Of a stretch of DNA of 64,000 nt, positions 18,564 to 36,557 are shown piece after piece. The position numbers were made by a program, and so were the translations under genes. This DNA is from Spirochaetota bacterium (lineage in GTDB: Bacteria; Spirochaetota; UBA4802; JAFGDQ01). Position 1 is the first letter of the stretch. Each line of letters opens with the position of its first letter. The DNA lies in assembly GCA_016932015.1 (NCBI GenBank), contig JAFGDQ010000016.1, positions 1 to 64,000 of the forward strand, given 5' to 3'. The notes beneath the pieces are model-generated. The model was not told the origin of the DNA, ran no database searches, and worked only from the letters and a program-made list of their open reading frames with translations.

Positions 18564-20498
18564 TTATTCTTTATAGACTCCGGAGTAGTCTTTGTTATTA
18601 ACTTCATATTGTTCTTTCATGTTTCCCCAGAAAGTTGCTGGTAATGAGTTAATTTTGACCTCACCGTTCTCCTGTTTTATTGTAAGCCATTTGTTCCATT
18701 CCGGCGGATCAACATCCGGGTAATCTATTCTGAAGAAGTGGAGCGGGGCACTGCTTGCCTTGCGCGCAAGAGAAGCCTGAATAATAATTTTTGCGTAGTT
18801 CAGCAAACTGACATCCTCAAGTGAACGTATCAGTTTATGCGGGTCAAGGGCGTAAAGCTGAGGCACTGATTCTTTTTCAAGTTTTTCCAGAGCGCGCAGC
18901 CCCATTTTGAAAAGAGACTCTGTTCTGAATTCACTGGCATAATACTGCATAACCCGCGCCATTCCTGCATGAAGTTCCTTCCATTCAATGCCGTGGCTGC
19001 GTTTTACAGGAGCGTAAACTCTTGCTTTTTCCTTCTCAATCTGATCGCGGGATAATTTGATTTCTCCCGCTTCTTTAGCGTATGCCGCGGCCTTGCGTCC
19101 TGCATATCGTCCTGTTGCCGCTGCATAACTGTGGTCTTCCGGTGAAAACATTTGTGTTCCGGCCGCATAAAGCCCGTCAAGGGTTGTTTTTAAATTCCAG
19201 TCAACCAGAATTCCTCCGCCGTATCCGGCTTCAAACCATTGCGGAAGGCTTTCACCTTCAAGGTATTTATAGCTTTGGAGCAGGTCCCTGCTTTCATCAT
19301 ATCCGGCTTTGTTGAATGTATCTATGATAATTTTTGTAGTTGATTCTTCACCGAGCATAAGTTTCCAGGTGACATCCCTTTCAACATCAGGCATTGCCGG
19401 AAAGTCGCCGTAAAAGGGAAGCTGATATTCGCCTTTTCTTATCCCTTCTCTGATAGCTTTGTCAGTTTCCATGTTTGGAATCATAGCACCCGCGTCTTTC
19501 CATCCCTGTGTCGGATATGGTACCGGCTTGCCGTTAGCGTCAACAATCGGAACGTTCTCATAACTGGCATCTCCGGCGCCTGAATACCATTTATGTTTAT
19601 AGCCGGTAGCAATATGAACCATACCGGTGCCTTCCATCTTGGTCAGCTCAGCTCCGGCGTTCCACGCCATAACAGTTCCGTCCCCTGAAATCGTACGCGA
19701 AAGCATGTTGGAGTAGCCTCCAAGCTCAGTGCTTATCATCCAGATAGAGCTTGCGCCGGATGTTGAAAGGATGGTAGCTTTTGACTTAAATATAAAAAAT
19801 TCGCCTGTACGGCTGTTAACTCCTGTTGCTCCTATAACACGGGCTCCCTGTTCGCCGTTTTCGGTCAGGAGGCTGGTAGCCATAACACGGTCAAAAATTT
19901 TAACCCCAAGGCGTTTACATTCTTTTTTTAATGCCGGTTTAAACGTACTTCCCCAAACCCTGATGACCACATTATTAAGCGTATCGTCAGGAGCTTCAGC
20001 GTTCTCTCCGATATCAAGGTAAGTATGCTTTCTGGTATAACGCGGAGAGATCATAAGCTTGCTTTTGTCATCACGTCCTTTTGCGCCTTTATATTTGTCT
20101 TCAGTATCCCTGATCTTCCCGCCCATCTGCTCCATCTCGAGAAGTGTGTCCCAGTTTTCCCGGCATTGTATCTGAATGCCTATGCCGTTGCAGAAGGGCC
20201 TGTCTGCCATATGTTCCGCCCATTCATCCGGGTCTACGTTTGATAAAGGATTTGCCGGCGCATTGCACCAGTGGTCGCAGCCTGGACCGCCTGCACCGCT
20301 TCTGACTGTGTCACCTTTTTCAACTAATGCAACCTTTACTCCCTGCCTTGCTGCGTTTATTGCGGCCCAGCAGCCTGCAATACCGCCCCCTATGACCAGT
20401 ACATCGGTTTCAATCTCCTGTTCTCTGTCATAAGCAATTTCATAAGGCCAGTCCGGAGCCCGGCCCTGTTCTTTAAAAAAGTCATGCCATGTTGTCAT
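18564..20498 (-). CDS. FAD-dependent oxidoreductase, AprA/fumarate-reductase-like
   Basis: 644-residue flavoprotein. The Rossmann motif DVLVIGGGIAGCWAA (about 33-47) is followed by a capping domain. Later come GGILVDWNLKTTLDGLYAAGTQMF and YAAATGRYAGRKAA, typical of the succinate dehydrogenase/fumarate reductase/AprA superfamily. A Cys-rich stretch near the start (GPGCDHWCNAP) is unusual. There is no twin-arginine signal, so it is cytoplasmic. With the adjoining AprB-like ferredoxin it looks like a two-subunit reductase. No sat or true aprB is nearby and the ferredoxin is short, so I do not call it sulfate reduction. Substrate unknown; a catabolic reductase linked to the nearby island is possible. 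Start has GAGGGG about 11 bases upstream. Confidence 0.82.
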   Translation of the reverse strand: MTTWHDFFKEQGRAPDWPYEIAYDREQEIETDVLVIGGGIAGCWAAINAARQGVKVALVEKGDTVRSGAGGPGCDHWCNAPANPLSNVDPDEWAEHMADRPFCNGIGIQIQCRENWDTLLEMEQMGGKIRDTEDKYKGAKGRDDKSKLMISPRYTRKHTYLDIGENAEAPDDTLNNVVIRVWGSTFKPALKKECKRLGVKIFDRVMATSLLTENGEQGARVIGATGVNSRTGEFFIFKSKATILSTSGASSIWMISTELGGYSNMLSRTISGDGTVMAWNAGAELTKMEGTGMVHIATGYKHKWYSGAGDASYENVPIVDANGKPVPYPTQGWKDAGAMIPNMETDKAIREGIRKGEYQLPFYGDFPAMPDVERDVTWKLMLGEESTTKIIIDTFNKAGYDESRDLLQSYKYLEGESLPQWFEAGYGGGILVDWNLKTTLDGLYAAGTQMFSPEDHSYAAATGRYAGRKAAAYAKEAGEIKLSRDQIEKEKARVYAPVKRSHGIEWKELHAGMARVMQYYASEFRTESLFKMGLRALEKLEKESVPQLYALDPHKLIRSLEDVSLLNYAKIIIQASLARKASSAPLHFFRIDYPDVDPPEWNKWLTIKQENGEVKINSLPATFWGNMKEQYEVNNKDYSGVYKE

Positions 20499-24921: not shown

Positions 24922-25905
24922 CTATAGCATTTTACCGCTTGATCCTGCTACTGCCGGGATGCCGTATTCTTTAAGTATATCTGTAAGATGCAGCAGGTCC
25001 TTTTCCCATACTTCTCTTTCAGGAGCATTAAACTCTTCCATAGGATAAGGCAGACATAACGTCGCGTATTTTTCAGTACCCATTTTTCTGAAAGGCAGAA
25101 GCTGAAGTCGTACAATATTATTTCCAAGTTCATCAATTATAAATTTTGCCGTTGCTCTGATGTTTTCTTCATTATTATTATGTTCCGGCACTACCGGAAT
25201 TCTTATTACAAGGGGTTTATTAAGCTCCACAGTTTTTTTAATGTTACTGAGTATAAGCTCATTCCCGACTCCGGTATATTCCTTATGTTTTCCGGAATCC
25301 ATATGCTTGATATCTGTAATAACGAGATCAGTAAATTCGTAAACCTTTTCAAGATGATCCGGAGGGCAGTACAGGGAAGATTCAATACATGTGTGAATGG
25401 CAGCATCTTTGCATGCTTTTAGCAGCAGCAGAACAAAATCCCACTGCAGCATAACTTCACCGCCTGAAAGTGTAACGCCGCCGCCTGTCTTTAAATAAAA
25501 ATTTCTGTCCTCAAGAATTATTTTCATGAGGTCCGGGACAGTCATTTTGTCTCCCCAGATCATGATTGCTCTTGAAGGGCATTCGTCCGCGCATTTAAAA
25601 CAGTCGTCGCAGGCGAGGTTTTCATTGATATTTACCAGAATGTCATTCCGGTAAATAATCGGTGTGTCTTTGCCTTCAGGACATACATTAATGCAGAAGG
25701 AGCATTTACTGAATCCTATGCATTTAGACGGGTAAACACCAAGCTGACGGCTGTGTGAAAGTCCTTCCGGATTGCTGCACCAGAGGCAGCGGAGCGGACA
25801 GCCTTTGAAAAAGATTTCTGTTCTGATTCCGGGGCCGTCGTGAATAGTATATTTTTGTATATTGGTGACAAGCCCGTAGGGCTCGCCTTCTTTTGTGTGT
25901 TTCAT
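24922..25905 (-). CDS. Glycyl radical enzyme activase (radical SAM)
   Basis: 327-residue activating enzyme that installs the glycyl radical using S-adenosylmethionine and a [4Fe-4S] cluster. The radical SAM motif FKGCPLRCLWCSNPEG (CxxxCxxC) starts near residue 35. An inserted ferredoxin-like domain with two further clusters follows (CIGFSKCSFCINVC and CDDCFKCADECPS), typical of activases for lyase/dehydratase-type enzymes rather than pyruvate formate-lyase. GGGVTLSGGEVMLQ is present. It lies 17 bases after the glycyl radical enzyme at 25923-28487. It is the only activase in the window for the two adjacent enzymes and may serve both. Confidence 0.93.
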   Translation of the reverse strand: MKHTKEGEPYGLVTNIQKYTIHDGPGIRTEIFFKGCPLRCLWCSNPEGLSHSRQLGVYPSKCIGFSKCSFCINVCPEGKDTPIIYRNDILVNINENLACDDCFKCADECPSRAIMIWGDKMTVPDLMKIILEDRNFYLKTGGGVTLSGGEVMLQWDFVLLLLKACKDAAIHTCIESSLYCPPDHLEKVYEFTDLVITDIKHMDSGKHKEYTGVGNELILSNIKKTVELNKPLVIRIPVVPEHNNNEENIRATAKFIIDELGNNIVRLQLLPFRKMGTEKYATLCLPYPMEEFNAPEREVWEKDLLHLTDILKEYGIPAVAGSSGKML

Positions 25906-25922
25906 TATATATATTAAACCAA

Positions 25923-28487
25923 TCAGTCAAAAGACAGTACTGTTCTGCCAATAATGTCATCCTGAAGCTCTTTTGAAAGCTCTACAAAATACGCGCTGTA
26001 ACCGGCAACCCGAACAAGAAGGTCTCTGTAGTCGTCCGGATTTTTCTGGGCTTCCACTAAGGTTTCCTGGTTTGCCACTGTAAACTGACTGTGCATACCT
26101 TTACGCTGAACATACTCATCCATTAAGGCTATAAAGCTGTCGCGCCCGGTTTGTCCCATTAAAGAGCCGGGAGAGAATTTCCAGTTAAGTAAAGTACCGT
26201 TGGTTGCTCTTGCGTGGTCCAGCTTTGTTACAGACCGGCATATTGCTGTAGGGCCTGATACATCATGTGAAGCGCAATGTGTATGAACTGCTCCCATGCA
26301 GTCGGATACGGGCTCATATGCCTTGCGACCTTCAAATGAAGCCCACTGCATAAGACCGAAAGCAACATTAACTGTAACTGAATATGCACCCGGCTGATAG
26401 AATCCTCCGCGCGGGTTAGGCCGTTTTTCAATATGCCTGCACCATGTATCCATTGCGAATTTTGTAAGTTCATCCGCGTAATCGTCATCATTGCCGTAAT
26501 GATGTACTTTTTCGCTGTTTACATATGCATACAAAGGTTCATGTCCTTCCCAGTTGTTTTTAACAGCTTCAAGAAACTCTTTTCCTGTTGCTTTTTTTTC
26601 TTCAAAAACAAGCTGTTTGATTGTTGCAAGCCCGTCACCGGTTGTACCTATTGCAACACCCTGAGGTCCGGTAAAGTTATATTTTAAACCGCCTGATGTT
26701 ATGTCTTTACCACTCTCTATGCATCCGTCCATTATGCTGGAAAGATATGGGAGAGGCTTAAGCTGCTGATGTGCCATGTCAACCGCGTTAAGAACTGCGA
26801 TCTGGCGGTCGCACCAGTATTTCATCTGTTTGTCATATGCTTCAAGGACTTCATCAAAGGTTTTAAAATTTTCGAGAGATCCTGTTGCAAGCCCAAGCCT
26901 GTCTCCTTTAGCTCCGCATTTTTCCCATCTCATGCATTTCGGACCGCAGTCAATGCATCTTCCGTCATTCATGGCAAGTTCCAGAACTTTTGCCATATTC
27001 ATATGGCCGCAGTCTTTCCAGCCGTATGATTTTCCTGTAACATCCGGTTCAACGCATCCGACCACCTGATAATCACGTGCATCCTTAACCTCTGTTCCGG
27101 ATGAAAGCATGGATGGTATTGCCACATCATCATTAAAAATTTTTGGCTCGCCTGTTCCAACCCTGATTGAGTTTGCGACCTTTACTTTAAGTTCCCATGG
27201 CGTGCCGGCATGCATTCTTACTGCCAGCCACGGAGTGGGTATGCGGATATGAATATGAGCGTCAATAGCCATATATGTAAGGTCATTGGTAGCGTCTTTC
27301 CCGTTTTTGTCTAATCCGCCAAGAGTCAGACACTGCCCGCCAATACCGCCGTTTCCGAATGTTTTAATAAGTATGTGACTTCTAAGCTTGTTTAGATCCC
27401 AGACTTTTAAATAGAAATTTTCAATAAGTTCCTGAATAAATTCACGGGTTGCTGTGCCGTCTTCCGTATCCTTCTTGTAGAAAGGATACATGTACTGGTC
27501 AAAACGTCCGTATGAAATAGAATGCCCGTTGCATTCCATATGTATCATGCAGTTGGCAATGTGTACAAGCTGAATAGCTTCCCAGAAAGTACGGGGAGGA
27601 TTCTCTGATATCCATTTTAGATTTTCATGCATCTGAAGAAGCTCTTTTCTGCGGATTTCGTCTTTTTCTGAATCAGCCTTTTCCTTTGCAAGATCGGCGT
27701 AACGCATTATATGATTTGTTGCGCCTTCGTTTACAATCAGTTCCGCCTTAAGAAATGTATGTTTTTTAAGTCCTTCCGGGTCAGACATGTCAATATTCTT
27801 CATGTTTTCCAGGATAAGCTCTTTTATTCCCTTAAAGCCTAATTTAAAAAGTTTGTCATAAGCCAGTCCAAGATGTCCTGCCCCGCAGTAAATATATGCA
27901 TCTGCAAAGAAAACGCCCTTGCCTGCGTGAGATCCCTTAAGTTCGTCATCAGTAAGCATTGAATTGGCGTAATCTTCAATTGTATTGCCTGCCCAGAAAT
28001 CGCGTATTGATTCAAGCTGTTCCTGCGACTCCTTAGTGAATGAAAAATAATCGTGCGTACGCTTTTCACTGTAATCCATCAGACCGTCGCGCATCTCATC
28101 CACAACCCAGTTAAGTCCGAATACCGGAAATACCGGAGCGCCTTTTTTATCACATCCGAGCCCTCCTGCCAGAAGTTCATCCTCATAAATGTAAACAGGA
28201 GTATTTCTGAAAATATTAGCCATTGCTTCTGCACATTTAATAACCTGAGGGGCTCCAGGATTTTTTTTAAATGCTTCAGTCTCGAGCATTGCTCTTTCGT
28301 GAGGGACAAATCCGTTTGTAGTTTTTGCGGTTTTGCTTAATATTCTGTTGATTCTCGGAAAAGGTGAAGGTTCCGGAGTGTTTCCTGAGACACCGACTCC
28401 CCATTCCCTGTCAAATGGTTCAACAGGCTGCGGCAGTATTTTTTCTGCCGATTTATATGTGTTATAAGTTTTTTTGTTTTCTTCCAT
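25923..28487 (-). CDS. Glycyl radical enzyme of dehydratase/lyase type (second in operon)
   Basis: 854-residue member of the pyruvate formate-lyase superfamily. The radical glycine is G829 in RVAGYSAYF. The thiyl cysteine and partner glutamate are C478 and E480 in GCVEPDVTGKSYGW, the Cys-x-Glu arrangement of dehydratases, C-N/C-S lyases and decarboxylases, not the Cys-Cys pair of pyruvate formate-lyase. Shortly after it comes a cysteine quartet at 511, 514, 518 and 524 (GRCIDCGPKCMRWEKCG), absent from the characterised families I can recall, which could bind metal. Active-site residues do not let me name a substrate; isethionate, hydroxyproline, choline and glycerol enzymes do not fit obviously. 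Same operon as the activase and second enzyme. Confidence 0.88.
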   Translation of the reverse strand: MEENKKTYNTYKSAEKILPQPVEPFDREWGVGVSGNTPEPSPFPRINRILSKTAKTTNGFVPHERAMLETEAFKKNPGAPQVIKCAEAMANIFRNTPVYIYEDELLAGGLGCDKKGAPVFPVFGLNWVVDEMRDGLMDYSEKRTHDYFSFTKESQEQLESIRDFWAGNTIEDYANSMLTDDELKGSHAGKGVFFADAYIYCGAGHLGLAYDKLFKLGFKGIKELILENMKNIDMSDPEGLKKHTFLKAELIVNEGATNHIMRYADLAKEKADSEKDEIRRKELLQMHENLKWISENPPRTFWEAIQLVHIANCMIHMECNGHSISYGRFDQYMYPFYKKDTEDGTATREFIQELIENFYLKVWDLNKLRSHILIKTFGNGGIGGQCLTLGGLDKNGKDATNDLTYMAIDAHIHIRIPTPWLAVRMHAGTPWELKVKVANSIRVGTGEPKIFNDDVAIPSMLSSGTEVKDARDYQVVGCVEPDVTGKSYGWKDCGHMNMAKVLELAMNDGRCIDCGPKCMRWEKCGAKGDRLGLATGSLENFKTFDEVLEAYDKQMKYWCDRQIAVLNAVDMAHQQLKPLPYLSSIMDGCIESGKDITSGGLKYNFTGPQGVAIGTTGDGLATIKQLVFEEKKATGKEFLEAVKNNWEGHEPLYAYVNSEKVHHYGNDDDYADELTKFAMDTWCRHIEKRPNPRGGFYQPGAYSVTVNVAFGLMQWASFEGRKAYEPVSDCMGAVHTHCASHDVSGPTAICRSVTKLDHARATNGTLLNWKFSPGSLMGQTGRDSFIALMDEYVQRKGMHSQFTVANQETLVEAQKNPDDYRDLLVRVAGYSAYFVELSKELQDDIIGRTVLSFD

Positions 28488-28602
28488 TCTTTTTCTCCCA
28501 TTATTTTTTCTGATCGCTTATCCAATTATCAGCATAGAACAGTTTTTTTATGGTAAATATATGATAAGCGGAAGAATTTTTTATTTATATAAATCTGACA
28601 TT

Positions 28603-31206
28603 TCAGTCAAAAGATAATTCTGTTCTGCTTATAAGATCGCTCTGCAGTTCCTCGCTAAGCTCAACAAAGTAAGCACTGTATCCTGCTATACGTACCAGCA
28701 GGTCTTTATATTGTTCAGGCTTTTTTTGCGCGTCTGAAAGTACTTCCTTGCCGATTATATTGAACTGGCTCTGCATGCCTTTGTTCTCAAAGTAAGTATC
28801 CATCAGTGAAATAAGATTGTCTCTTCCTGTTTCTCCTGACACTGCGCCCGGAGAAAATTTCCAGTTCAGAATAATACCGTTGCCGATTCTGCTGTGATCT
28901 AGTTTTGCCACGGATTTCGCTATTGCCGTCGGGCCTCTTCTGTCATGTGAGCTCATTTCAGTATGGACAGGCCCTATGCAGTCTGATAACGGTTCATATG
29001 ATTTTCTGCCGTCAGGTGTCGCAGCTGTATAAAAGCCTGCCATGACATTCTGTGAAACAGAAAAGACGCCGGGCATATATTCACCGCCGTGAGGTGTAGG
29101 CCTGTGCTCAACATGTTTGCAGTATGTCGCTGTAACGAATTTTGCAACATCATCAGCATAGTCGTCATCGTTGCCGTAACAGTGCATTCTGTCGCTGTTT
29201 ACTATTGCGTAGAGCGGCTCATACCCTTCCCAGTTGGCTTTCAATGCCTTGAGAAATGTTGCGCCGTCGGTTTTTTTCTCATCAAATACAAGCTGCCTGA
29301 TTGCAGTAAGACTGTCAGCAGTTGTGCCTATACCGACTCCCTGTGGGCCGCTGTGATTGTATATGGCACCTCCGACAGATACGTCTTTGCCTTTGTCAAT
29401 ACAGCCCTGAATCAGAAGGGAAAGATATGGCAGCGGCTTAAGTCTCTGATGTGCAAAGTCCACTTTGTTTACCTGTGAGATCATAATATCACACCAGTAC
29501 TTCATTTGTTTGTCAAATGATTCCTTTACATCTTCAAAAGATTTAAATGTTTCAAGACTGCCGGTATCTATTCCAAGCCTTCCCCCGGCACCGGCGCATT
29601 TTTCATATCTCATGCAGTGCGGTCCGCAGTCAATGCAGCGTCCGCCGTTTATCGCGAGCTGCATAACCTTTGCTATATTGAAAGAGCTTGAATCATGCCA
29701 GCCGTAAGTCTTGCCCGGTACGCATGGTTCAACGCATCCGATTCCGACATAGTTTCTTGCGTCTTCAACCGGCTTGTCATAATTCAGCAATGACTTAATC
29801 ATTTCGGAGTCATTGAATATTTTCGGCTCTCCGGTTCCTATTCGTATTACATTAAAGGTTTTGATTTTGAATTCACGCGGAGAATTGGCATGAAGGCGGA
29901 CTCCCATCCACGGGTTAGGAATTCGGGTGTGTGCATGTGCGTCCAGAACCATGTAACTGAGGTCGTTGGTTGCATCGTTTCCGTCTTTGTCAACGCCGCC
30001 TACATCGAGAGCGGTTCCTCCCATGATTGTACCGCTTGAAAATACAATTGCAGTCTTATCGCGGATTTTACAAAGCTGATGCATTTTGAGAAACCCCATT
30101 TCAATTAGTTCCTGCATAAACTCCCTTGTGAGAGTGCCTTTTTCAATATCGTTTTTATAATAAGGATAAAACAGCTGGTCAAAACGGCCGTATGTAACTG
30201 AATGTCCGTTCGATTCAATAATAATCATGTTTGTCGCTATATGCCAAAGCTGAATGGCTTCCCAGAAATCCCTTGCCGGTCCTTCCGCGACCTGTGAGCA
30301 GTTGGAGGAAATGCGAAGAAGCTCGGCTTTTCTCTGTTCATCAGTTTCTTCTTCAGCCATTTCCGCAGCAAGATTTGCATAGCGTTTGATGTATGATGAA
30401 GCACCCTCAATTGCTATTAAAGAAGCGTCATAAAATTCCTTTTTAATAATATCTTCAGGATTAGAAGTATCAAGTGCAGCCAGCTTTTCTTCTATCTGTT
30501 TTCTTATTCCGCCGTATCCTATGGCAAAAAGTGTTTCATAATCGGCGCAGACATGGCCGATTCCGGCTGAAGCAAACAAACCGAAAAAATTAACTCCTTT
30601 CTCAAGATGAGATCCTTTCCTTTCTTCCTCTGTAAGAGTACTCAGTATATGTTCTTCAAGAGTGTTCCCTTTCCAGCAGGGCTGTATCTTAAGAAGCTCT
30701 TTTTTTGTTTCTTCACTGATTACGTAGCGGTCGTTGCGTCTCTGGTCAAGAGGTTCATTGATCATTTCCTCGCACAGCCAGTCAATAGCGAATTCCGGAT
30801 ATACGGGAGCGCTTTTTGCAGGCGCTGCCAGTTCTCCGGCAATCAGTTCGTCCGGCCAGATGTTAATTGTTACATTTTGAAGCAGGTCACGGAAACACAG
30901 CGCCGTTTTCAGAATCTGGGGATAAGACGCGTATTTGTTAAAATAACCTTCAGTATAGATAACTGCTCGCTGATGATCAGCCGAGGTATCTCTTTCTTTC
31001 ATCCATTTTAAGATCTTGTTGATTCTAGGAAAAGGTGACGGCTCATCAACTGCCCCGGATACTCCAATTCCCCATTCCCTGTCATAGGGTTCGATAGGAA
31101 ACGGTTTATGTTTTAATGCATTGTCGTAAAGTTGCCCTGCAATTGAACTTGATTCGGGAAATGCTGATTCTGATGTGTTTAATTTTTTTTCAATGAATGA
31201 TTCCAT
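28603..31206 (-). CDS. Glycyl radical enzyme of dehydratase/lyase type (first in operon)
   Basis: 867 residues, homologous over its whole length to the enzyme at 25923-28487. Radical glycine G842 (RIAGYSAYF), catalytic C491 and E493 (GCVEPCVPGKTYGWHD). The same cysteine quartet follows (C524, C527, C531, C537 in GRCIDCGPHCMRYEKC). Differences around the active-site loops (EPCVPGKTYGWHDSSSF versus EPDVTGKSYGWKDCGHM) suggest either different substrates or a two-subunit enzyme. First gene of the three-gene set with the downstream enzyme and activase. Both lack the small iron-sulfur subunits of benzylsuccinate synthase and hydroxyphenylacetate decarboxylase. Upstream lies the dispersed repeat at 31287-31358. 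Confidence 0.88.
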   Translation of the reverse strand: MESFIEKKLNTSESAFPESSSIAGQLYDNALKHKPFPIEPYDREWGIGVSGAVDEPSPFPRINKILKWMKERDTSADHQRAVIYTEGYFNKYASYPQILKTALCFRDLLQNVTINIWPDELIAGELAAPAKSAPVYPEFAIDWLCEEMINEPLDQRRNDRYVISEETKKELLKIQPCWKGNTLEEHILSTLTEEERKGSHLEKGVNFFGLFASAGIGHVCADYETLFAIGYGGIRKQIEEKLAALDTSNPEDIIKKEFYDASLIAIEGASSYIKRYANLAAEMAEEETDEQRKAELLRISSNCSQVAEGPARDFWEAIQLWHIATNMIIIESNGHSVTYGRFDQLFYPYYKNDIEKGTLTREFMQELIEMGFLKMHQLCKIRDKTAIVFSSGTIMGGTALDVGGVDKDGNDATNDLSYMVLDAHAHTRIPNPWMGVRLHANSPREFKIKTFNVIRIGTGEPKIFNDSEMIKSLLNYDKPVEDARNYVGIGCVEPCVPGKTYGWHDSSSFNIAKVMQLAINGGRCIDCGPHCMRYEKCAGAGGRLGIDTGSLETFKSFEDVKESFDKQMKYWCDIMISQVNKVDFAHQRLKPLPYLSLLIQGCIDKGKDVSVGGAIYNHSGPQGVGIGTTADSLTAIRQLVFDEKKTDGATFLKALKANWEGYEPLYAIVNSDRMHCYGNDDDYADDVAKFVTATYCKHVEHRPTPHGGEYMPGVFSVSQNVMAGFYTAATPDGRKSYEPLSDCIGPVHTEMSSHDRRGPTAIAKSVAKLDHSRIGNGIILNWKFSPGAVSGETGRDNLISLMDTYFENKGMQSQFNIIGKEVLSDAQKKPEQYKDLLVRIAGYSAYFVELSEELQSDLISRTELSFD

Positions 31207-31584: not shown

Positions 31585-32892
31585 TTATGGGCCGACCATA
31601 AGTTCGGGCAGCCAGGTGCTTAATGACGGAAATGCCACTATAATGAATAGAAATACTATAAGCACTAGCAGATAAGGCATTAATCCTTTAAGCAGGTCGC
31701 TGCTCGAAATTTTAAAGACATTTTTGACAAGGAAGAAGTTCATTGCCATTGGCGGTGTAATCAACGCTATCTCCATGTTTACTTCATAAAGAACCGCAAA
31801 CCAGATCGGGTTTAAGCCCATCGAGACAACTAAAGGCACATAGATCGGTATTGTAATAGCCATCATTGTCATCCCGTCTATCATTGTTCCGAGTATTAAT
31901 AAAAGGAACTGCATGCATATTACAACAACAAGGGGATTCGTACCGAATACCTGTACCCAGGATATCAGCTGCTTGGATATTGATACCGAACCTACTATAT
32001 ATGAGAAAAAACTTGCCCCGATAATGATAAAAAGAATCGCAGCGTTGACTTTTACAGTAGCTATCATTGATCTGTATAATTCTTTCCATCTGTATTTATA
32101 AAATACTACGGCAATTACTAATACAAAAAAAGCTCCGACTCCTCCTGCTTCAGTAGCTGTTGCTATTCCAAAGAAAATACTTCCCATAATTGCTGCAAAA
32201 ATTACTATTACAGACCAGACTTTTTTAAGAGAAATAATTCTGTCTTTCCAATTTACTTTACCTATTGATGGTGCAAGTGAAGGATCTCTCCAGGTTTTAA
32301 AAATCGGAACAGAAGCAAGCATAAGAGCAAGTAAAAGACCGGGGATTGTGCCTGCAACGAGAAGCTGACCTAAAGGTATGCATTCACCGGCAAGAGCTGA
32401 AATAATAATAGCAGTTGTACTCGGCGGAATTAGCGGACCAAGTACTCCGCCGCATGTAAGAGCCCCGAGACTCAACTTTCTGTCATAGTTGAATTTATCA
32501 AGTTCAGGCATGGCGACCGGGCCGATGCACAGGATTGTGGCGCCGCTTGATCCTAAAGGAGCACCTATAGCAGCCTGTGCCATAATACTGGCAACTATAA
32601 GGCCGCCGGGAACGCGGTTAAGCCATAATCTGGCAGCGACAAACAAATCCTCTCCGATTTTTGTTTCTGCTATAATGTAGCCTAAAAAAGTAAATAAAGG
32701 CAAGGCTGTCCATGAAGGATTGTATAATGTCTGGAATGTTGACCAGCCGAGTTTTTCCATTGCTGCCGGCCCGTATGTAAAAAAACCTACAGCCATTGCA
32801 CTGATTCCAACTGAATAAGCAATAGGCAGTCCTACTGCCAGCATGACAAGCATTATTCCGATACATGACAGCATCGGGATCAAAGCTTCCAT
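31585..32892 (-). CDS. dctM: TRAP transporter large permease DctM
   Basis: 435-residue, very hydrophobic protein with about 12 membrane helices, the channel subunit of a tripartite ATP-independent periplasmic transporter. Family marks include an N-terminal LPIAYSVGISAM segment, GPVAMPELDKFNYDRKLSLGAL and PLIPPSTTAIIISALAGE. The C-terminal half has GTMIDGMTMMAITIPIYVPLV. It uses the ion gradient together with dctQ and the periplasmic binding proteins encoded 1.3 kb away on the other strand. 108 bases separate it from dctQ upstream. Confidence 0.94.
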   Translation of the reverse strand: MEALIPMLSCIGIMLVMLAVGLPIAYSVGISAMAVGFFTYGPAAMEKLGWSTFQTLYNPSWTALPLFTFLGYIIAETKIGEDLFVAARLWLNRVPGGLIVASIMAQAAIGAPLGSSGATILCIGPVAMPELDKFNYDRKLSLGALTCGGVLGPLIPPSTTAIIISALAGECIPLGQLLVAGTIPGLLLALMLASVPIFKTWRDPSLAPSIGKVNWKDRIISLKKVWSVIVIFAAIMGSIFFGIATATEAGGVGAFFVLVIAVVFYKYRWKELYRSMIATVKVNAAILFIIIGASFFSYIVGSVSISKQLISWVQVFGTNPLVVVICMQFLLLILGTMIDGMTMMAITIPIYVPLVVSMGLNPIWFAVLYEVNMEIALITPPMAMNFFLVKNVFKISSSDLLKGLMPYLLVLIVFLFIIVAFPSLSTWLPELMVGP

Positions 32893-33000: not shown

Positions 33001-33558
33001 TTATACGAGGCTGATCTTTATTTCATCCGGATCTTCCTCTTCATGCTCTCCTGTTACATATGACATGATATTTTTATAAAATTTACTGAGTAAAACTAGA
33101 ACGACAAGACCATAACAAACAGGAATCATAATCTTGACCGGGTAAATAGGCTCTGCCCATACTGATACGCTTATCTCTTTTATTTTTAATGAATACATCG
33201 CGCCGGTCCAGCCTTTCCATGTAAGAACTGAGCAGAAAACAATACCCAGTATCGGGCTGATTAATTTCTTTAAGAATCTGCGTACCTTTACAGGCATAAG
33301 CTGAGTAAAAATATCGGATGTAATATGTTCACCATCCTTTTCCACTTCAGGCATAGCAAAGACATAAGTCCATACTAAAAAGATAGTTCCTAATTCGTAT
33401 GAGATTGGTTCAGGTGAGCGAAAAAAGTAACGCATTATTACTCCGTAAGTTGCAGTAAAGACCATGAGTACCAGCTGTATTCCTGCCAATACCACGAATA
33501 ACGTGCCGGCCTTCATTACGATGGAGTTAATAAAACCTGCTATTTTACGTACCATCAA
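33001..33558 (-). CDS. dctQ: TRAP transporter small permease DctQ
   Basis: 185 residues with four membrane helices (about 12-35, 48-68, 90-110, 130-155). The WTYVFAMPEVEKDGEHITSD motif in the middle is the DctQ family signature. It partners dctM downstream. The cytoplasmic C-terminus is acidic. GGAGG lies just before the ATG. Divergent from dctP1, with a 598-base control region between. Confidence 0.92.
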   Translation of the reverse strand: MMVRKIAGFINSIVMKAGTLFVVLAGIQLVLMVFTATYGVIMRYFFRSPEPISYELGTIFLVWTYVFAMPEVEKDGEHITSDIFTQLMPVKVRRFLKKLISPILGIVFCSVLTWKGWTGAMYSLKIKEISVSVWAEPIYPVKIMIPVCYGLVVLVLLSKFYKNIMSYVTGEHEEEDPDEIKISLV

Positions 33559-34156: not shown

Positions 34157-35188
34157 ATGTTTAAGAAGTTTTTATTTTTTGTTATTGCGGTAATGACTGT
34201 GGCATCATTATCAATGTGTAAGTCGGAAAAGAAAACACAGATTTTAAGGCTTGTTGTTCCTTCACCTGCAGGAGACTGGCCGCTTACATGGATATGTGAA
34301 GATTATGCAAAAAGATTTAATGAAAGGGTAGACGGAGCTTACAAGATTGAAGTCCATGCCGGAGGTGCTCTCGCAAAAGTCCCTGAATATTTTGATGCTA
34401 TCCGGACAGGTTCGGTAGAGATGGCTCTTGCACCGTGGGGATTCTACAGTTTCATGGAACCGAAATTAAGCCTGATTGAAATACCTTTCCTTCTGGATAA
34501 TCAGCAGGCGGGTGCATATTCAACCACCGGATTGGTAAAATTATATGATCCGATTCTGCAGGAAAAATTCAACATGAAAGGCCTGGGACTTATGAGCCTT
34601 GCAGGCTGTGAACTGCTTTCAAGAAAACCTGTCAAAACATTGAAGGACTGGAAAGGACTTCTCGTAGGTACATTAAGCCCGAGTACTTCAATGCTGGTTA
34701 AAAAACTCGGCGGAGCTCCTACTGTTATTAACTGGATGGAATTCTACGAGTCACTGCAGAAAAAAATTATTGATGGTGTTATTAACGGGACTCACAGTAA
34801 TCTGCAGATACATCTTGTTGATGTATGCAAATATCAGACTCTTTTCTATGGTGCCAACTCATGGAATGGATGGTCGGTAAACCTGGATGTATTTAATGAT
34901 ATGCCGGAAGATGTCCAGAAAATTCTTCAGGAAGAGGCTGACAACAGTGTGGAGTGGATGCATAAAACCATGCTGGAACTTGATGCTGATGATATGAAGC
35001 GTATGAAAGAGCAGAAGATCAATGTTTATACTATTCCTCCTGCTGAACGCGCAAAATGGGTCAAAGTTCTCGAGCCTTACAACGAGGAACAGTTTGCCAA
35101 ATTCGGCGAGTTCGGTGCTAAAATAAAAGCAATAACTGAAGAAGCAAATAAAAAGTACCCGTATACAGGATTGACTTTAAAAAAGTAA
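34157..35188 (+). CDS. dctP: TRAP transporter binding protein DctP (copy 1)
   Basis: 343-residue periplasmic solute-binding protein. Signal peptide with a possible spirochaete-like loose lipobox (ASLSMC, Cys21). The DctP fold is clear: LRLVVPSPAGDWPLTWICED near the start, GGALAKVPEYFDAIRTG, and a C-terminal TMLELDADDMKRMKEQ helix. At the ligand-binding loop the family normally has a carboxylate-clamping arginine (KGLKIRxP); this protein has DWKGLLVGTLSPST with Gly171 at that position. The ligand may therefore not be a simple carboxylate. Strong ribosome-binding site (GAGAGGAGG). Its permease genes lie divergently upstream. Confidence 0.93.
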   Translation: MFKKFLFFVIAVMTVASLSMCKSEKKTQILRLVVPSPAGDWPLTWICEDYAKRFNERVDGAYKIEVHAGGALAKVPEYFDAIRTGSVEMALAPWGFYSFMEPKLSLIEIPFLLDNQQAGAYSTTGLVKLYDPILQEKFNMKGLGLMSLAGCELLSRKPVKTLKDWKGLLVGTLSPSTSMLVKKLGGAPTVINWMEFYESLQKKIIDGVINGTHSNLQIHLVDVCKYQTLFYGANSWNGWSVNLDVFNDMPEDVQKILQEEADNSVEWMHKTMLELDADDMKRMKEQKINVYTIPPAERAKWVKVLEPYNEEQFAKFGEFGAKIKAITEEANKKYPYTGLTLKK

Positions 35189-35528
35189 ATCCTGCAATTT
35201 AAATATTATTTTATAATATCACAAATGCCCTGCAAATTACCGCAGGGCATTTGTTATTACTGATTTAATATAACTGACTTTTTATTAGGGAATAAGGCAG
35301 CTGCCGTTATGCTTATGCAGTTAAGAATAAATTTATTGAAAAATGAATTTTTATTGATTTTTTTATTATATGATATATAAGTTTCCGCAGATTAGCCTGA
35401 TATATTAATTGCCTACTTAATTATTATACACCTAAGCGGGATGATCTAAGCATTATTCAGTATCGGGGTTTAAAATTTTTCGTTAACTGTTTTTCATAAA
35501 ACGAAGATAAAAAACACAGGAGGATTGT
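35189..35528. other. Spacer between dctP copies
   Basis: 340 bases. Holds the terminator at 35222-35253 after dctP1, then AT-rich DNA. AGGAGG precedes dctP2. No gene; an independent promoter for dctP2 is likely because of the terminator, but I cannot place it. Confidence 0.4.
35222..35253 (+). terminator. Terminator after dctP1
   Basis: CAAATGCCCTGC (35222-35233) pairs with GCAGGGCATTTG (35242-35253), with an 8-base loop. The same GCCCTGC stem recurs after dctP2, so the duplication seems to have carried its terminator. Confidence 0.75.
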
Positions 35529-36557
35529 ATGTTTAAGAAGTTTTTACTTGTTATTCTTGCAGTTATGACTGTCGCATCATTAACCATGTGCAAGTCTGAA
35601 AAAAAGACTAAGGTTTTAAGACTTGTTGTCCCTTCACCTGCAGGTGACTGGCCGCTTACCTGGCTGTGTGAAGATTTTGCCAAAAGATTTAATGAAAGAG
35701 CAGACGGGGAGTATAAGATGGAAGTTCATGCCGGAGGTGCTCTGGCAAAGCTTCCTGAGTATCTTGATGCAGTAAGAACCGGATCTGTGGAAATGGCTTT
35801 GGGGCCTGTCGGCTTTTACAGCGGTATGGAACCGAGATTAAGTTTAATCGAATCGCCTTTTCTTTTAAACAATCAGCAGGCAGGTGCTTATGCAACAGCA
35901 GAGTACTCAAAATTATATGGGGAGATATTGAAGGAAAAATTCAATATCAAGACACTTGGAATAATGAGCCTTGCCGGAGTAGAGCTTATTTCCAGCAAGG
36001 AAGTTAAAACAATGAAGGACTGGAAAGGGCTGCTGGTCGGCAGTTTGAGCCCAAGTGTCTCTATACTTGCCAAAAGTCTTGGAGGCGCTCCTACAGTTAT
36101 TGACTGGATGGAGTTCTATGAATCTCTGCAGAAGAAAGTTATAGACGGTGTTGTTAACGGAACCCACGGTTCTTTACAGACTAATCTTTTTGATATTTGT
36201 AAACATTGCACTCTGTTCTACGGTGTAAATTCATGGAATATCTGGCTGTTGAATCTTGATGTTTTCAATGAAATGCCGGAGGATATTCAGAAGGCAATGG
36301 TAGAAGAAGGACAGGCAAGTGTTGACTGGATGCATAATACAATGCTGGAGCTTGACGCGGATGACCTGAAGCGCATGAAGGAGAAAAATGTTAATATATA
36401 TACAATACCTCCGGCTGAGCGTGAAAAATGGAAAAAAGCCCTTGCTTCGTATAACGAGGAACATTTCAAAAAATTCGGGGAGTTTGGGAAAAAAATAAAG
36501 GCAGTTGCAGATGAAGCAAATAAAAAATTCCCGTATACAGGACTTACTTTAAAATAG
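35529..36557 (+). CDS. dctP: TRAP transporter binding protein DctP (copy 2)
   Basis: 342-residue paralogue of the preceding gene, closely similar along its length, including the signal peptide (VASLTMC, Cys21). It also lacks the usual ligand arginine: the loop reads DWKGLLVGSLSPSVS. Differences cluster around residues 90-100 (LGPVGFYSGMEPR versus LAPWGFYSFMEPK) and 205-245, regions likely to face the ligand. Two binding proteins could feed one dctQM permease with related compounds. Preceded by AGGAGG and a fresh spacer after the copy-1 terminator, so probably expressed separately. Confidence 0.93.
   Translation: MFKKFLLVILAVMTVASLTMCKSEKKTKVLRLVVPSPAGDWPLTWLCEDFAKRFNERADGEYKMEVHAGGALAKLPEYLDAVRTGSVEMALGPVGFYSGMEPRLSLIESPFLLNNQQAGAYATAEYSKLYGEILKEKFNIKTLGIMSLAGVELISSKEVKTMKDWKGLLVGSLSPSVSILAKSLGGAPTVIDWMEFYESLQKKVIDGVVNGTHGSLQTNLFDICKHCTLFYGVNSWNIWLLNLDVFNEMPEDIQKAMVEEGQASVDWMHNTMLELDADDLKRMKEKNVNIYTIPPAEREKWKKALASYNEEHFKKFGEFGKKIKAVADEANKKFPYTGLTLK

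Follow-up and report, generated by a model that had tools for sequence, protein, structure and literature searches.

The GRE1 and GRE2 genes and their neighbours

The genes for two glycyl radical enzymes (GREs) lie in tandem on the reverse strand of the window, the whole 64,000-nucleotide stretch of spirochaetal DNA analysed here. GRE1 (25923..28487, 854 residues) and GRE2 (28603..31206, 867 residues) are both HpfG-like glycyl radical eliminases. Each carries a Gly_radical domain (PF01228; 97.6 and 103.5 bits), with the radical glycine at G829 of GRE1 (RVAGYS) and G842 of GRE2 (RIAGYS). The catalytic Cys-x-Glu is Cys478-Val479-Glu480 within GCVEP in GRE1 (27048..27056, reverse strand) and C491-V-E493 in GRE2; this element and the glycyl radical motif are invariant in our alignment of relatives. 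Both paralogs keep H205, H322, S323, C478, E480 and D492 (GRE1 numbering), which correspond to the catalytic set of the glycerol dehydratase structure.

AlphaFold2 models have mean pLDDT values of 93.2 (GRE1) and 91.6 (GRE2), and a fold search found 1,2-propanediol dehydratase and glycerol dehydratase to be the closest folds (TM 0.96 by target, 1.7 Å). The B12-independent glycerol and 1,2-propanediol dehydratases (PDB 1r8w, 9rcp, 5i2g) have the fold, the Gly and Cys loops and the His-His-Ser-Glu-Asp set in common with the window enzymes, to which they are 38–39% identical.

A radical SAM GRE-activating enzyme with a ferredoxin-like insert (24922..25905, reverse strand) is encoded 17 bp downstream of GRE1 and scores 330 bits against TIGR02494 (cut-off 174). 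It is the sole activase adjoining the two genes, and probably serves both enzymes. Upstream of GRE2 and on the same strand are the TRAP transporter large permease DctM (31585..32892) and small permease DctQ (33001..33558), followed by two divergent forward-strand copies of the substrate-binding protein DctP (34157..35188 and 35529..36557). The two DctP proteins (34157–36557) are adjacent and clearly related, beside a single DctQM pair, and there is possibly one for each GRE substrate. The gaps beside and between the GRE genes hold no ORF for a small Cys-rich subunit, as had been claimed from the sequence before this analysis. Elsewhere in the window, 18564–20498 encodes a fumarate reductase/AprA-like flavoprotein that falls under every curated cut-off (best 194 of 587 bits), an orphan flavoenzyme.

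In 14 of 55 loci GRE1-side and GRE2-side genes occur together, most often near a single activase, and the tree indicates co-inheritance of the pair in the window, L033 and L034. Several genomes, including that of Sporobacter termitidis DSM 10068, have the GRE1 type alone and others the GRE2 type alone; with drafts and MAGs, such absence is soft. An obligate pair as a general rule is ruled out by these single-type genomes: the tandem arrangement is common, not obligatory. Gene calling at the neighbouring loci was codon-based and rough, with spurious ORFs possible where GC content is high. A conserved cassette of an MtnA-like isomerase, a class II aldolase-like protein, a FAH-like protein, GRE1 with or without GRE2 and an activase recurs at L035, L036, L037, L045, L047, L048 and L052, in Oscillospiraceae and related MAGs including S. 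termitidis DSM 10068, and suggests an undescribed pathway. A relative from the family of the window genome (G002, contigs C64, C67 and C79) has at least 13 GRE genes, many of them clustered on the same contigs.

A four-cysteine insert and its conservation

Four closely spaced cysteines follow the catalytic cysteine in both enzymes. In GRE1 they are C511-x2-C514-x3-C518-x5-C524 (residues 511–524, 26916..26957, reverse strand), within GRCIDCGPKCMRWEKCG; in GRE2 they are C524, C527, C531 and C537 (residues 524–537, 29596..29637, reverse strand), within GRCIDCGPHCMRYEKCA. The translations share the motif CIDCGPxCMRxEKC, that is C-x2-C-x3-C-x5-C. The sequence-only reading had placed it about 33 residues past the catalytic cysteine, and the distance to the first quartet cysteine is exactly 33 in GRE1 and GRE2 alike; read from the sequence, the proximity of the quartet to the active site is one that holds along the chain.

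Profile alignment to glycerol dehydratase, both propanediol dehydratases, CutC and PflD leaves a gap over the quartet (15 residues against the glycerol and propanediol dehydratases), and the quartet is hence an insert. It is discrete, about 10 residues long, and lies past the helix that comes after the Cys-finger loop. None of these solved enzymes has it, in agreement with the earlier remark that characterised isethionate lyase, choline lyase, glycerol dehydratase and hydroxyproline dehydratase are not known to have such a set, and it is absent as well from the other GREs of the window genome that were read (L003–L008). The modelled loop (pLDDT 89–91 in GRE1 and 91–92 in GRE2) consists of coil and then two short turns, alike in both proteins. 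A sequence search with the insert alone against solved chains returned chance matches only.

To place the insert among its relatives, 74 loci were fetched from genome assemblies with the patterns [YF]DKQMKY and GTG[EQ]PKIF, the cysteine motif itself not being used. In the resulting alignment of 80 sequences, 72 have all four cysteines, 8 lack the entire insert and none has two or three cysteines. From the cysteine content, 1.7e-4 (GRE1) and 1.3e-4 (GRE2) exact-spacing quartets are expected per protein; that all four cysteines are kept in every carrier and the whole insert is gone in the other eight excludes a chance origin. Across 75 carriers the cysteines are 100% conserved and most positions between them vary; L077 and L080 even have four extra residues between the second and third cysteines, with all cysteines retained.

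When the insert columns are left out of tree building, members without the quartet fall in some five to six separate places inside the clade, and in each place the insert is missing as a unit. The insert is apparently ancestral to the HpfG-like clade, with one gain and several losses on this sequence tree. It thus belongs to the whole clade, HpfG-type enzymes included, and the notion that it is special to the tandem pair does not hold. Members without the insert are still intact GREs, which makes it dispensable for the scaffold. The all-or-none pattern of the cysteines points to a Cys4 metal site, unlike that of loose structural or redox cysteines. The quartet is likely to be the signature of such a site, and conservation of this type (72/72, 75/75) lends support to the earlier proposal that it binds metal. 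C559 was considered as a fifth ligand because it co-varied with the quartet in a first alignment; it is rejected, as quartet-bearing HpfG-type enzymes have Thr there.

Relation of GRE1 and GRE2 to HpfG

Both enzymes resemble HpfG, the (2S)-dihydroxypropanesulfonate (DHPS) dehydratase of NCBIfam NF048009, in clade, catalytic residues and kind of activase; they are ~46% identical to Enterococcus HpfG (E. raffinosus HpfG was used in place of that of E. gilvus), and some HpfG-type enzymes share the quartet with them. It is nevertheless doubtful that GRE1 and GRE2 are plain DHPS dehydratases whose loop is an unremarkable trait of their clade. That assignment draws on their passing the NF048009 cut-off (1026.8 and 1053.4 bits against 1000), and on the common import of sulfonates by TRAP transporters. 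Against it, HpfG-type enzymes encoded beside HpfD score 1596–1696 bits and the related L095 scores 1507, so that with or without the quartet the HpfG type (1507–1696) lies at least 450 bits, and up to about 650, above the window enzymes. In the tree, GRE1 and GRE2 lie outside the HpfG-type branch, in separate sister clades that each comprise 35 sequences. Pocket residues 380–386, 319 and 493–495 also differ. The glycine-rich loop 380–386 reads R-G-F-G-G-E-S in HpfG, G-G-I-G-G in GRE1 and T-I-M-G-G-T in GRE2; Arg380, kept in HpfG, is replaced by Gly in GRE1 and Thr in GRE2, and these loop differences probably mean that each group has its own substrate. Neither HpfD nor HpfE is a neighbour of GRE1 and GRE2, and the window genome (91% complete) has no close HpfD, its best match being 24% identical (E 1e-23). 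The scores, clades, pocket loop and missing HpfD together disfavour a straight HpfG label and place GRE1 and GRE2 among HpfG-like eliminases.

The substrate of GRE1 and GRE2 is probably an anionic diol, and an anionic compound would be in keeping with the TRAP transporter encoded upstream. Termite-gut origin and the MtnA–aldolase neighbourhoods prompted the idea of a lignin beta-ether or methylthio compound as substrate, but nothing was found to support it. The NF048009 equivalog cut-off of 1000 bits lets in sister clades at ~1010–1125 bits, against ~1500–1700 for the HpfG type, and HpfG annotations in the ~1010–1125-bit band are doubtful.

The HpfG-type enzymes also bear on what the quartet does. 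Those of L012, L108/L116 and L109/L117 carry it, sit between HpfH and HpfD and share ~77–78% identity with the quartet-less HpfG of Enterococcus; all the Enterococcus and Fusobacteria HpfG enzymes examined are without it. The HpfD proteins of L116 and L117 are 71–75% identical to that of Enterococcus. Since the quartet is present in and absent from HpfG-type enzymes that are ~77% identical and have the same operon partners, it is probably not what determines the chemistry, and the idea that it marks a new reaction is disfavoured. More likely, it has a structural or conformational function or protects the radical.

The quartet-bearing HpfG–HpfD cassettes of L116 (4002–5501) and L117 (12301–15006) adjoin genes for glycerol kinase or for GlpA/GlpB-like (glycerol-3-phosphate dehydrogenase-like) proteins, and on the strength of these neighbours the substrate of the 'HpfG' encoded there may be glycerol rather than DHPS. 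A glycerol kinase, a regulator, HpfH, quartet-bearing HpfG and HpfD are encoded together in L012 (MT836881.1), deposited from human faeces as 'Bacteriophage sp.'; it looks like a bacterial contig, the same cassette occurring in L116, a bacterial genome.

A predicted iron–sulfur cluster and its possible roles

Four invariant cysteines in a compact motif are what is looked for in a [4Fe-4S] protein. Cx2Cx3C with a further cysteine is the [4Fe-4S] pattern of molybdopterin/tungsten (molybdenum and tungsten) oxidoreductases, and four cysteines within 14 residues with a single CX2C knuckle are compact and less usual for zinc, resembling [4Fe-4S] loops. Judged by its spacing, the quartet probably holds a [4Fe-4S] cluster, which is likelier there than zinc. 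The example of MASS-delta, for which [4Fe-4S] was predicted from a CX2C motif and a single Fe was actually bound (PMC12358834), is a warning for motif-based prediction at the quartet.

On sequence grounds, the site may instead bind zinc or mononuclear iron, or serve a purpose that involves no metal. A structural Zn(II) has a precedent in a glycyl-radical polypeptide, the class III ribonucleotide reductase NrdD, where a Cys4 zinc finger in the radical domain is credited with stabilising the loop that bears the radical (PMC9669993), and all-or-none conservation would suit any Cys4 metal site. The parallel with NrdD extends to a Cys4 site within the radical-bearing chain, but NrdD carries its zinc finger at the C terminus, within the glycyl radical domain, whereas the window quartet follows the Cys-loop helix with Cx2Cx3Cx5C spacing and in GRE1 occupies residues 511–524 of 854, with the radical glycine at 829. 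The compactness of the motif, closer to that of a [4Fe-4S] loop, leaves zinc an unlikely occupant. If the cysteines had no permanent metal and acted only as redox switches or in folding, the loss of single cysteines should be tolerated, yet there is none among the 75 carriers; we regard this as highly improbable, even though the loop is missing in some lineages. An obligate GRE1–GRE2 heterodimer whose cluster loops meet at the interface is also very unlikely: the shared loci with a single activase nearby and the co-inheritance of the pair would favour this arrangement, but genomes with only one type, soft as those absences are, speak against it.

We infer the identity of the metal, the convergence of the four sulfurs, the role of the site and the substrate, and the explanation as a whole, to which we give a probability of roughly 0.65, runs as follows. 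GRE1 and GRE2 are paralogous eliminases of the HpfG-like clade in which the four insert cysteines would ligate a [4Fe-4S] cluster within the catalytic chain. In each enzyme, the glycyl radical would generate the cysteine thiyl radical and this in turn the substrate radical, by the standard chemistry, and a leaving group would be removed from a substrate that resembles a 1,2-diol, is probably anionic and may be imported by the TRAP transporter. The cluster would probably be auxiliary, stiffening the loop and the barrel, controlling how the glycyl radical domain opens or quenching stray radicals. Similar roles are attributed to the clusters of BSS-beta/gamma or HPAD-gamma, which lie in separate subunits.

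Iron centres are associated with GREs in BSS (beta and gamma), HPAD (gamma) and MASS (beta, gamma and delta), as proposed here for GRE1 and GRE2; they have been tied to solubility, conformational control or thiyl radical formation, with hole-acceptor, structural and radical-quenching roles proposed (PMC12358834, PMC12590467). Whereas their metal is held in separate small subunits with HiPIP-like or rubredoxin-like folds, the putative ligands of the window enzymes lie inside the catalytic chain, and GRE1 and GRE2 have no gene for such a metal subunit beside or between them. A built-in [4Fe-4S] cluster might also be a redox partner, for instance by accepting holes and thereby quenching thiyl or glycyl radicals that have gone astray, or as the sensor of an off-switch, giving a redox-gated GRE without subunits, though we think this improbable.

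A search of open-access papers turned up no GRE eliminase described as having a Cys4 insert in its barrel, and no match to the exact motif text. Known relatives have either no cluster or one supplied by a separate small subunit. GREs are oxygen-sensitive, and to our knowledge the role of Fe–S centres far from the GRE active site has been studied only in BSS, HPAD and MASS, which are multisubunit and oxygen-labile. In GRE1 and GRE2 the predicted metal site amounts to ~10 residues of loop that could be taken out of a single-chain enzyme, and since natural relatives ~77% identical occur with and without it in the same kind of cassette, the role of the cluster could be tested by swapping or deleting the loop. 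The finding also flags widespread GREs of gut, termite, rumen and sediment that are named HpfG in databases on a marginal score.

Further cysteines are conserved within the GRE1 clade (C112 in 30/30 sequences, C319 in 29/30, C201 in 28/30, C750 in 27/30 and C493 in 23/30), with no equivalents in GRE2 or the HpfG-type enzymes. By our own mapping, C201 presumably aligns with the substrate-contacting Arg of IslA/HypD, and to judge from the alignment these extra cysteines may lie along the pocket or constitute another site.
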